Shown here piece by piece: positions 230-11,449 of a stretch of 64,000 nt of DNA (the first letter of the stretch is position 1; each line of letters opens with the position of its first letter). The notes below the pieces were generated by a model. The model did not search any database. It worked only from the letters and a program-made list of their open reading frames with translations, and was not told the DNA's origin. The stretch comes from Methanolobus vulcani (GTDB lineage Archaea; Halobacteriota; Methanosarcinia; Methanosarcinales; Methanosarcinaceae), in NCBI RefSeq assembly GCF_006546655.1, contig NZ_VIAQ01000019.1, positions 186,001 through 250,000 of the forward strand. The letters run 5' to 3'. Made by a program: the position numbers and the translations under genes.

Positions 230-751
230 ATAAGCACTGTAGATAAGATAATAGATGCTGTTTTTGAATCTGATGACGATTTTAGGAGAATCCTTTCTAC
301 TACTATAAAAGAAGACTTGAATTTGAATATGGCGGAATTCGCTGAGCAAGCTGGCGTTCCTGCCAGTACACTCTATAAAATCATGTCAGGAAAAAGAGAA
401 CCTAATGTCAAGACATTGAGACAAATTATCAAAACAGTAAAAAGACTGGAAGGTTCGGAAAAGGGAGAATTCATTGCGGTAATCGCTGCAAGACCGGTAC
501 TTGACAACATAAGTGAAACTAAAAGAAAAATATGCGGAAACCTTTGCACTATTAGAGAGTATTCTGCGACTTCCATGGAAGAAGCTATTATTGCAGCTGT
601 GCGTGCCGAAAGAGATGGAGCAAAAGCCCTTGTATGTGCACCTATAGTAAGCCCTACAGTAGAAAAAATACTGAGGATACCTGTTGCAACCATTATGCCA
701 AAGAACAGTCTCTTTGATGCTATCGAACTTGTAGCTAAGAAAATTAGCTAA
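230..751 (+). CDS. XRE-type HTH transcriptional regulator with a C-terminal sensor-like domain; start codon abnormal
   Basis: The protein has a lambda-repressor-like helix-turn-helix (NMAEFAEQAGVPASTLYKIM and the following KREPN turn) and a C-terminal domain of about 85 residues (GAKALVCAP, then VEKILRIPVATIMP) that resembles effector domains of archaeal regulators. It is probably a cytoplasmic DNA-binding protein. The frame is open and looks coding from 227 (ISTVDKIIDAVFESDDDF), but there is no ATG, GTG or TTG before a TTG at 317, which sits almost inside the HTH. I start it at ATA 230, about 7 nt after GGGGG. Other readings are the TTG at 317, or an ATG at 213 joined by a one-base indel in the A run at 225-227. 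The exact regulon is unknown. Confidence 0.7.
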   Translation: MSTVDKIIDAVFESDDDFRRILSTTIKEDLNLNMAEFAEQAGVPASTLYKIMSGKREPNVKTLRQIIKTVKRLEGSEKGEFIAVIAARPVLDNISETKRKICGNLCTIREYSATSMEEAIIAAVRAERDGAKALVCAPIVSPTVEKILRIPVATIMPKNSLFDAIELVAKKIS

Positions 752-7489: not shown

Positions 7490-9889
7490 TTAGATCATGT
7501 CTGAAGAACCATAGCGCATCCTGTCCGCAAGTTCCTGCTTCTTACCATTGTTCCAGCCACTTACTGCCTGCACATATCCGGTTACCCTGGACATCTGCTC
7601 GACATTGGTGGAACCACAGTTCTCACATGTGCACTTAAGACCTGACATCATGTGGAAGTCATTGAGACACACAGTCATATCCTTGGTGAAAGCAAAGTAA
7701 CCAATCTGAGTGTTCCTTGCAATGTTCATTGCAAATTCCTTAAGTCCCTTTGCATCAGGTGAACCTTCACCCATCCAGATGTGACAGATGTTTCCTCCGT
7801 CAACGATCGGGAAGAACACATGCTCGATGTTTATCCTGTCAATAAGTGAGACATTAGCTCCAGGTGGTACATGAGTACCGTTGGTGTAGTATACCGGAAG
7901 ATCAGTAGTCTTCCTTAGATTTGCAAGAGCAGCTTCCTTGTCACCCTTGACAACTTCAAGTACACAGTCCCTGTACTCATCATGGAGCATGTCGGATACT
8001 GAGAATCTCTGACCTGTAGTTTCAGCAGGCGTACGTGCAAGAGCGATCTCAAGGCCGTACTTCTGACTGAGCTCATGTGCGTACATTTCCATCTCAGTCA
8101 TTACCCTGATTGCAAACTTGAATGCATCTCTTGATTCATGCAACTCTGAACCAGTGTGGTACTGGACCATTTCATTGATACCTACAACACCGATGGTGCA
8201 TACAAGTGAATCAATATCCACTGCAACACATCCCTTCTCACCTGTTACAGGGTCCTTTGGCCTCTGTGTTGCAAATGGCATCCTGTTGTTCTCAATGATA
8301 TTCTCCATCCAGTTGCGCTTTGTCTTGAACAGAGTTATACACTGATCCATCAGTTGTTTGAGATCAGCAAACAGAGCAGAATCATCCCCATTCGCCCTGT
8401 ATGCTGCTCGTGGGCAGTTAAGAGATACTACCTGCCAGGAACCCATTGAGAAATGTTTTCCATCCTTGAACAGGAGTTTATCATCAAAACTGTCATCTGC
8501 ATCAGCATTTGCTGAGAACTGGTATGCACAGCACTGATAGCAGGATATGCCCTCTCCTGCACCTCTGTATTCTGGTAACTGATTATCGAAATATGGAGTA
8601 CCGAACTTTGCTGCAAGTTCGAAGGTCATGTCATAGAGTTCCTCATAACCTGGCAGATCAGGATGTGCCTTGTTGAAGAACTCATCCTCCTGCATGAAGT
8701 CAGGTTCAATGGAAATCTCAGGCTTTGGGAAATTGAAAGGCTTACCCCAGTTGTCACCCTCAATCATTACATCCATGAGTGCCTTGAATGCAAGACGGAC
8801 CTCACGCTCAAACTCACCATATGTGCGTTCCTGAGTACCGTTCTCGCCATTGTGGACACGTCCCTTGTAAACAGCTGGCTTGTCCTTCCAGAGCTTTGGC
8901 ACACCTGGAGAAAGCTGGACTGAGGAGAATACTACCTGTCCGCCGCGGGCTACCATCATCTGGGTCATCTCATACACGAACATCTGCATGAGCTGTTTTA
9001 CATCACTGTAAGTCTTACCCTCAAGATATGGAGCAAGGAATGTAAGGAAATTATAGAATCCCTGACCACCTGCAAAGTTTGTCTGGGCGCTTCCCAGAGC
9101 CTTCACTGCGTGGAGGATTGCAACTTCTGCCTTCATTGCAGGGCCAGCTACACTTGCCTTGGCACCTGAACCGTCTGGCATGAGACCATAGTAGAAGAAA
9201 TACCTGAGATCCCAGTCCTGACAGAATGCACGGGTTCCAAGATATTCAAGATCGTGAATGTGAAGGTCACCATTAAGGTGGAGATCTGCAAGCTTTGGTG
9301 GCAACAGAAGAAGATACTGTTCCTTTGAGATCTTATCTGCCTTCTTCTTGTGAGATGTTTCTGCATTTTCCTGAAGGTTTGCATTGTCATTTGCCTCAAA
9401 GCCGCTTCCAAGATCAATCTCACATGCATCATATACAGGAGTACCTATTCTGGTAGAAATATTCCTCCATTCAACATGACCTCTCTGCAAGAGCTCCATA
9501 TTGACGATTTCCCTGATAAGCGGACCTGAAAGGAATTTGAGATCAAGGCTTCTGATACGGCGCTCTACATCTTTTGCAATGTCAAGTGCTGCGTCCTTTT
9601 CGATTCCAGGCTTGCCGTGGAATCTCTCAGCAAGTTTTGTTTCCTTTAACAACTGGTCCACAATGATACTGCGATCCCAGTCCACCATATGCCCTGCAGT
9701 GGTACGCACCTTAGGCATTATAGAAATATCATGACCATCGAGTGTCTTCTGTATAGCATGCTGTTTTGTGAGTGTTGTCATACTGGTATCTGTCCTTTCG
9801 TCTTCCTCTGCGCAAACCTGCATGTCAGTTCCCAACTCTGCATTTTCAAGTTCGACCTTTTCCTTAATATTAGTAGCACATACGTCCAT
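7490..9889 (-). CDS. nrdD: Anaerobic (class III) ribonucleoside-triphosphate reductase
   Basis: NrdD reduces ribonucleotides to deoxyribonucleotides without oxygen, using a glycyl radical. The 799-residue protein has an N-terminal ATP-cone (about 60-145; KVRTTAGHMVDWDRSIIVDQ), the class III catalytic barrel (HIHDLEYLG, CYQCCAYQ), a C-terminal zinc site formed by Cys residues around KCTCENCGS, and the glycyl radical loop SRVTGYVQ near the C-terminus. I chose the ATG at 9889, which has AGGTGG 5 nt upstream; a GTG at 9898 lies within that ribosome site. It is the middle gene of the operon redoxin-nrdD-nrdG, consistent with a strict anaerobe. Confidence 0.96.
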   Translation of the reverse strand: MDVCATNIKEKVELENAELGTDMQVCAEEDERTDTSMTTLTKQHAIQKTLDGHDISIMPKVRTTAGHMVDWDRSIIVDQLLKETKLAERFHGKPGIEKDAALDIAKDVERRIRSLDLKFLSGPLIREIVNMELLQRGHVEWRNISTRIGTPVYDACEIDLGSGFEANDNANLQENAETSHKKKADKISKEQYLLLLPPKLADLHLNGDLHIHDLEYLGTRAFCQDWDLRYFFYYGLMPDGSGAKASVAGPAMKAEVAILHAVKALGSAQTNFAGGQGFYNFLTFLAPYLEGKTYSDVKQLMQMFVYEMTQMMVARGGQVVFSSVQLSPGVPKLWKDKPAVYKGRVHNGENGTQERTYGEFEREVRLAFKALMDVMIEGDNWGKPFNFPKPEISIEPDFMQEDEFFNKAHPDLPGYEELYDMTFELAAKFGTPYFDNQLPEYRGAGEGISCYQCCAYQFSANADADDSFDDKLLFKDGKHFSMGSWQVVSLNCPRAAYRANGDDSALFADLKQLMDQCITLFKTKRNWMENIIENNRMPFATQRPKDPVTGEKGCVAVDIDSLVCTIGVVGINEMVQYHTGSELHESRDAFKFAIRVMTEMEMYAHELSQKYGLEIALARTPAETTGQRFSVSDMLHDEYRDCVLEVVKGDKEAALANLRKTTDLPVYYTNGTHVPPGANVSLIDRINIEHVFFPIVDGGNICHIWMGEGSPDAKGLKEFAMNIARNTQIGYFAFTKDMTVCLNDFHMMSGLKCTCENCGSTNVEQMSRVTGYVQAVSGWNNGKKQELADRMRYGSSDMI

Positions 9890-9914
9890 TATTCCCACCT
9901 TAATTAAATTGCAC

Positions 9915-10166
9915 TTAAAGTATGCTACCCAATGCTTCCAGGTTCACGTCAGGACCCTTGAACAGTTCCTTATGAGTTAAAAACTCATCGCCGATCTGGA
10001 GTACAGGGGCAGTCATGGTGAAAACACCATTGAATTTTAGTTCGGTCAAAGCTTCAGGAGTAGACATATCTGCTGTTGCAAATGCAACTCCCTTCGATTT
10101 AAGTACCTTTTTTAATTGCTCGCATTTCGGGCAAGTCTGTGTTGTATATATAACCACTTCAACCAT
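9915..10166 (-). CDS. Glutaredoxin/NrdH-like redoxin, likely electron donor to NrdD
   Basis: An 83-residue thioredoxin-fold protein with the CPKC redox motif (residues 12-15) after VVIYTTQT and a cis-Pro segment (MTAPVLQIGD). The size and the CxxC match NrdH-type glutaredoxins. I start it at ATG 10166, which has GAGGG about 9 nt upstream; a longer reading to 10265 has no support and would put a poorly conserved tail before the fold. It lies 25 nt upstream of nrdD, so it is probably the disulfide reductant of NrdD. For Methanosarcina barkeri such an NrdH-like protein is known to feed electrons to the class III enzyme. Confidence 0.88.
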   Translation of the reverse strand: MVEVVIYTTQTCPKCEQLKKVLKSKGVAFATADMSTPEALTELKFNGVFTMTAPVLQIGDEFLTHKELFKGPDVNLEALGSIL

Positions 10167-10783
10167 TTTCTCGCGTCCCTCGATTGTATATAAATAAACT
10201 ATTATATTAGTCCCATTCTGGAGAGGAACAGCAATGCCAGATTGAAAAACGCACACATCCGACATTACAGTTATCGAAACTCCTGTTTCCAGAAGGTAAA
10301 TTATACAAATGGGTTTTAGCTTAATAATGGTTTTTCAAACTGCATTTGAATATATAATCGAGTATATCACACCAGCATTGTTATCAAATGTGAAACACAC
10401 AATAAACAAATATGATCAAGTGGATGAAACATACATGATTACTACCAAGTTGGCCCAAACAGAAAGAAGCCATTTTGAGAAAAAACACAGAAATAAAAAA
10501 CAAACTAAAAGTTCATAAATAACTTAAGTAATCCTAAAGGGTCCGGCAAAACCGACGTTTTCCCACAAGATATAGCAAAATAATTTACATAATACCCCAG
10601 AATATTTTCTTCGCAGAAATTTTGTAGAATCAGCAGCATGACTTCAATAAGCATTGGATTATTATACAGTGTTCTACGGAGCCTAAAAAGAAAAACGCAT
10701 AAAAGAAAAAATGCACCAACGGTGCCAAAAGATGTATATTATAAACCCTATTATAGCAGATAATCCTAGCAAGAGGTGTAAAG
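10167..10783. other. Intergenic region between the nrd operon and radB
   Basis: This 617-nt AT-rich stretch separates two divergent units. On its left edge lie TATA-like elements for the minus-strand nrd operon (about 10187-10215). On its right edge a TATA box (GTATATTATAAA, about 10733-10745) is placed for radB. A GC stem at 10541-10556 followed by GTTTTCC could be a terminator, and a weak 69-codon ORF (10309-10518) ends 22 nt before it, but that ORF has no family features or convincing ribosome site. I see no tRNA or other known RNA. Confidence 0.6.
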
Positions 10784-11449
10784 ATAACTAAACAACTAAG
10801 TTCCGGCTGCAAGCCTATTGATGATCTTTTAGGCGGAGGATTTGAGGCAGGCGTAGTCACACAGATATTTGGAGAACCAGGAAGCGGAAAAACAAATCTG
10901 TGCCTCCAGCTTGCAGTGGAATGTGTCAAAAAAGGAAAAAAAGCTATCTATATAGATACTGAAGCAATCTCACCGGATAGGTTCAGGCAGATTGCCGGAG
11001 AGAATGCTAAAGAGATAGCCCAGCAGATAATTATCTTTGAACCTCATAATTTTGAAGAACAATATGCAGCAGTAAAAGAGATCGAGAAGCTCATATCAGA
11101 CAAAGTGGGACTGATACTCATAGACTCCGCAACTGCTTTTTACAGGTTCGAGCTTGACCAGGAAGAATCAGGAATAAGGACAAGAAGAGAGCTTGCAAAC
11201 CAGATAGGACTTATACATGCCATTGCACGCAAACACAGAATAGTTGCTGTCATGACAAACCAGGTCTACAGCGATATGGCAGGTGGCGTAAGACCCATAG
11301 GCGGCAGTGGAATAGAGCACATCTCAAAAACTATTATCCAGCTTGAAAAGACAGGAGATAGCAAGAGACGTGCAAAACTCTGGAAACACCGCTCACTTCC
11401 CGAAGGCGGCACCTGTGAGTTTACCATCACCAATGAAGGTGTAAGGTAA
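10784..11449 (+). CDS. radB: DNA repair and recombination protein RadB; AUA start
   Basis: RadB is the archaeal RecA/RadA paralogue that assists homologous recombination. The 221-residue product has the family N-terminus (QLSSGCKPIDDLLGGGF), Walker A GEPGSGKT at residues 30-37, Walker B (VGLILIDSATAFYRFEL) and the loop GVRPIGGSGIEHISKTII. There is no ATG, GTG or TTG in frame between the upstream TAG at 10754 and a GTG at 10916, which lies after Walker A. The family N-terminus matches a start at ATA 10784 with GAGGTG 5 nt upstream and a TATA box about 40 nt upstream. The assignment is firm; the AUA initiation is inferred and could be a sequencing change of ATG. Confidence 0.93.
   Translation: MTKQLSSGCKPIDDLLGGGFEAGVVTQIFGEPGSGKTNLCLQLAVECVKKGKKAIYIDTEAISPDRFRQIAGENAKEIAQQIIIFEPHNFEEQYAAVKEIEKLISDKVGLILIDSATAFYRFELDQEESGIRTRRELANQIGLIHAIARKHRIVAVMTNQVYSDMAGGVRPIGGSGIEHISKTIIQLEKTGDSKRRAKLWKHRSLPEGGTCEFTITNEGVR

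Follow-up and report, generated by a model that had tools for sequence, protein, structure and literature searches.

Organization of the radB locus and its start region

The window analysed here, a stretch of 64,000 nucleotides from Methanolobus vulcani, carries on its forward strand the DNA-repair gene radB (10784..11449), of 221 codons plus stop, whose stop codon (11447-11449) closes a frame opened after an in-frame TAG at 10754..10756. Its product passes the curated equivalog model TIGR02237 (244.3 bits vs. a cut-off of 172.4) and is matched by the Pfam Rad51 family (PF08423) and by the solved RadB structure 2cvf (E = 8.7e-36); a second RadB model, NF006861, yields 228 of 278 bits, which is under its cut-off. 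The protein shares 98% identity with the RadB recorded for M. vulcani. As in RadB proteins generally, a RecA-like core with a Walker A motif (GEPGSGKT, residues 30-37, located at 10871..10894 on the forward strand by translation and family alignment) occurs without the N-terminal domain of RadA, the alignment to RadA running from residue ~87 onward. The radA gene of the same genome starts with ATG.

Between the TAG and a GTG at 10916..10918 (forward strand), the radB frame contains no ATG, GTG or TTG, and the GTG lies past Walker A; inspection of the sequence thus bore out what the preliminary description had claimed on both points. The match to NF006861 begins at residue 12 of the open reading frame, which corresponds to model position 3, so that by an extrapolation of two positions the first position of the model falls on residue 10, an ATA codon at 10784..10786. 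This is the codon that had previously been placed where the family starts. The Shine-Dalgarno (SD) sequence GAGGTG reported 5 nt upstream of it is indeed present on the same strand at 10773..10778, separated from the ATA by the spacer TAAAG, and the TATA box described at about 40 nt upstream can be identified with a TATA-like element, TATATTATA (10735..10743, forward strand), whose centre lies ~45 nt 5' of the ATA and which constitutes a putative promoter element. An A-rich, BRE-like stretch directly precedes this element, and most Methanolobus species and related genera have AAAAGATGTATATTAT or a near variant at its position. From the ATA codon, the predicted N-terminus of RadB would read (M)EKLLSSGCKPLDELL. 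No Rfam element was found in the region searched (10300-11000). Coupling of radB to an upstream gene was ruled out, as the open reading frames at 7490-9943 and 9915-10334 are on the opposite strand.

Since GTG 10916 is the first in-frame canonical codon in the window, a start there or at a similar downstream codon could be considered, in which case the N-terminus and Walker A would be missing from the protein. The residues encoded 5' of this GTG, however, are among the most conserved in the RadB family, and the position of the GTG itself is not conserved, being absent in some close relatives (e.g. L006 and L010). With Walker A deleted by such a start, we rejected the GTG and regard a downstream start as exceedingly improbable.

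Conservation of the start codon across Methanosarcinaceae

The start region of radB was examined in 109 Methanosarcinaceae species representing 14 genera, among them Methanolobus, Methanosarcina, Methanococcoides, Methanohalophilus, Methanomethylovorans, Methanosalsum, Methanimicrococcus and ANME-3-like MAGs. The start codon is ATA in 103 of the 109 species and ATC in six (Methanimicrococcus). Looking for ATG in the radB of close relatives had been proposed as a check in the preliminary description; not one of the 109 species has it. A sequencing or assembly error at 10784, conceivable in a draft genome given that ATA and ATG differ by one base, is refuted by the occurrence of the same codon in more than 100 independently sequenced genomes and can be dismissed. 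Canonical codons are absent from the upstream stop to the AUH (AUA, AUU or AUC) codon in 57/109 species, through the conserved xSG motif in 51/109 and through Walker A in 20/109, and a stop is located no more than 3 codons 5' of the AUH codon in 26/109. Of the 109 species, 96 have GAGGTG as the SD core and nine GGGGTG, with a spacing of 5-7 nt.

Changes were counted on a tree built from nucleotide sequences of 105 species. The first two bases of the start codon have undergone zero changes and the third a single one, from A to C, with none to G. Fourfold sites show a mean of 24.1 changes (range 13-36, n = 33), and the conservation of the AUH codon therefore exceeds synonymous drift. The SD bases have changed 2-9 times and the leader bases 5' of the SD ~11-26 times, the latter without codon periodicity. 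That ATG never appears at this codon, although it is one transition away from ATA and is the usually favoured start, suggests selection against AUG, which remains an inference. Among closely related prokaryotes, a change from AUG to AUU has been recorded once in 61,358 ancestral AUG starts (PMC5622118).

If translation began instead at the GTG within the SD (GAG-GTG), or at another canonical codon upstream, the ATA would be an internal isoleucine codon. At -9, the GTG of the SD lies in the radB frame in 55/109 species and, in up to ~30 of them, is not followed by a stop and could in principle serve as a start; likewise, the radB frames of Methanosarcina open far upstream and some include a TTG or ATG at -60. 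These last codons, however, coincide with the TATA box. As for the GTG within the SD, the window and about half of the species have it out of frame, and a stop follows it in most Methanolobus species; in most of the species examined, one or the other applies. The 57 species noted above lack any upstream canonical codon. An internal isoleucine codon would also be expected to drift among ATA, ATC and ATT, as is the case in nine other Ile-rich columns of radB, where the three codons are mixed and 12-27 changes have occurred. Finally, the missing codon periodicity of the leader speaks against its being translated, and the use of the GTG as start would leave radB without an SD. An upstream start is very improbable.

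Start codons in Methanoperedenaceae and other archaea

Among 30 Methanoperedenaceae species, radB starts with ATA in 18, ATT in six, ATC in one and ATG in five, i.e. with AUH in 25/30. Near-identical pairs differ at the start codon itself (GGAGGGAAAGTTATAAAAAACACC vs. GGAGGGGAAGTTATGAAAAACACC), and this exchange of ATA and ATG at one codon, which marks ATA as the start, is the best comparative evidence available for it. The ATG-started genes are spread over four positions in the tree; on a tree of 107 rows, the minimum number of AUH/AUG changes is 10. With ATG tolerated in about four lineages of Methanoperedenaceae, the constraint on the radB start is not absolute.

Editing or special decoding of the codon, for instance A-to-I editing of AUA to AUI that is then read as AUG, would permit efficient initiation at AUA. 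Such editing cannot yield AUG from the AUC of Methanimicrococcus or from the AUU and AUC of Methanoperedenaceae, however, and encoding ATG would be simpler; we consider this explanation highly improbable. The proposal of the preliminary description that radB starts at AUA is, in contrast, strongly supported by comparison, with ATA or ATC in 109/109 Methanosarcinaceae species, and we conclude with high confidence, from sequence evidence, that AUA (more generally AUH) is the functional start of radB.

Ordinary ATG or GTG starts are found in the radB of Methanotrichaceae, most ANME-2c, haloarchaea and others. ATC is located at the radB start position in one ANME-2c genus (L149, L154, L155, L157, L159), and ATC or ATT in some Methanocellales-like MAGs (L292-L294, L300), with GGTGGTG, GGGGTG or a similar sequence 5' of the codon. 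Because canonical GTG codons are in frame upstream, these cases are ambiguous: radB may start at AUH here too, or at a GTG in the ordinary way.

Strength of the Shine-Dalgarno sequence

With a duplex energy of -9.7, the SD of this radB is stronger than those of ~93% of 330 genes of the same genome, for which the median is -4.6. The median SD to anti-SD duplex energy of AUH-started radB is -9.7 in Methanosarcinaceae and -8.8 in Methanoperedenaceae, and -6.6, -3.5, -4.7 and -6.2 in four groups of AUG/GUG-started radB. The SDs of AUH-started radB are much stronger than those of the first three AUG groups (p = 4e-13), a value that overstates independence because the species are related. This pattern agrees with a general trend for weaker start codons to be paired with stronger SDs (PMC5622118).

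Other candidate non-canonical starts

In a comparison of 304 conserved genes between this genome (386 kb of it) and a second Methanolobus, radB was the clearest instance of protein conservation without a canonical start. There were a few further candidates, and these were less deeply examined. The frame of a putative HTH regulator (ISTVDKIIDAVFESDD...) at 230-748 (+) of the window starts with ATA directly after TAA-AGA; every other alignable Methanolobus copy has ATG at that codon, and the ATA represents either a sequencing error or an ATG-to-ATA change specific to this lineage. Elsewhere in the genome, a CbiG-like gene (G000:C17, 21.2-21.8 kb, minus strand; L414-L438) has in its start region GGGAGGTCTTACTTATACGGAGTGGCACAAGAACCGCTGTCATAACCTTT, a sequence conserved nearly base for base across Methanolobus, synonymous sites included. 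There is no canonical start nearby, and the sequence could be either a further AUA start or an element acting as RNA. A Csl4-like exosome gene (G000:C16:283063-283866, minus strand; L358) has a conserved N-terminal extension, GILIRIRNRRKTSRRKIK..., and its first 50 codons lack ATG, GTG and TTG in both Methanolobus compared. In a kinase-like gene (G000:C17:57532-58443, plus strand; L362), the N-terminus ISHVYTISETF is encoded from an ATA; this codon is ATG in the second Methanolobus, where the protein begins MSRVFAISETF.

A model for the translation of radB

We infer that the strong GAGGTG would anchor the 30S subunit at radB and that the initiator Met-tRNA would pair with AUA via a third-position mismatch; initiation would be slow, and RadB would begin with Met. 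Discrimination against non-canonical starts has been reported for archaeal aIF1 (PMC6237735), and initiation at the radB AUA should consequently be slow but possible. Selection keeping the weak codon would then hold RadB, as a RadA-loading recombination mediator, low relative to RadA. The RadB of H. volcanii is a recombination mediator that loads RadA (PMC5480776), and the level of P. furiosus RadB is given in the same paper, at second hand, as ~200-fold under that of RadA. Lower RadB synthesis from AUA, as suggested in the preliminary description, would fit this low level in another archaeon, the conservation of the codon (with ATG absent from the family) and the compensating strong SD.

The AUA might, on the other hand, act as a sensor, with RadB synthesis following initiation stringency (the level of aIF1/aIF2, growth, stress) instead of being only constitutively low. 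It falls in the same codon class (AUA/AUU/AUC) as the start of bacterial infC, the AUA of S. aureus ccpN delivers from ~10% to 30% of AUG output depending on the medium (PMC13009471), and archaeal aIF1, as noted, reportedly discriminates against non-canonical starts. There is, however, no direct evidence for a sensor, RadB is no translation factor, and a constitutively low output accounts equally well for the radB data, so that we retain this only as an unlikely possibility. It is quite doubtful whether in Methanosarcinaceae the AUA forms a regulatory checkpoint, at which output would vary with start-codon stringency (aIF1/aIF2, growth state, stress) and homologous recombination capacity would be coupled to initiation fidelity. 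Our preferred explanation, in which we have good confidence, is that radB is translated from the AUA at 10784 and that the weak start combined with the strong SD would hold RadB low. That low or tunable RadB dosage is the selected effect appears reasonably likely, the dosage being inferred in the absence of expression data.

Significance and comparison with known AUH starts

The start codons named in a review of archaeal initiation are AUG, GUG and UUG (PMC7531240). We found no earlier report of a conserved AUA start in archaea in the accessible literature, and the only archaeal AUA start encountered was that of a haloarchaeal nadA whose ATG had been changed to ATA by an accidental mutation; priority is uncertain, as subscription papers and annotations were outside our scope. 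Translation is known to be limited by AUH starts in bacterial genes (infC, pcnB, ccpN), and the archaeal case is apparently undescribed in the literature searched. That this radB codon is held as AUA in one family and exchanges with AUU, AUC and AUG in a second indicates that AUH starts are usable by archaeal ribosomes and that one such start has been maintained in evolution, probably where low output is wanted. Gene finders that accept only ATG, GTG and TTG are bound to miss radB, to truncate it or to give it a wrong start in no fewer than half of the species (57/109). In the genetically tractable Methanosarcina, radB offers a natural system in which to study how aIF1 and aIF2 handle AUH starts and why a RadA-loading factor is kept at a low dose.

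The gene resembles bacterial infC, which encodes IF3 and starts with AUU, AUA or AUC, and E. coli pcnB, which starts with AUU, in that an AUH-class start has been kept in one gene family during evolution, and it fulfils the sequence criteria for cases of this kind: no canonical start is available, an AUH codon preceded by an SD occupies the position where the family starts, and this codon is conserved beyond synonymous drift. Unlike infC, whose product IF3 is a bacterial factor, radB is translated by an archaeal ribosome without IF3 and its product is a recombination mediator, so that autoregulation of the infC type is not directly applicable, although aIF1 might fill the role of IF3 in archaea (PMC6237735). 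The infC of S. aureus starts with AUA, a start thought to limit its translation (PMC13009471), and the AUU of E. coli pcnB is cited in that paper. In S. aureus, ccpN (AUA), cvfC1 (AUU) and citZ (AUA) have strong extended SDs and yield ~10%, and as much as 30%, of the output obtained with AUG (PMC13009471); the AUH starts of ccpN and cvfC1 are conserved in staphylococci and, like that of radB, are accompanied by strong SDs. Within the RadB family, the proteins of H. volcanii, T. kodakarensis and P. furiosus have an N-terminus that begins at the same place, but the relatives examined in other families have ATG or GTG starts and usually a weaker SD, unlike the radB of Methanosarcinaceae. Whereas the S. 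aureus AUH starts are bacterial and extend over staphylococci or fewer strains, that of radB is found throughout one archaeal family and in most of another.
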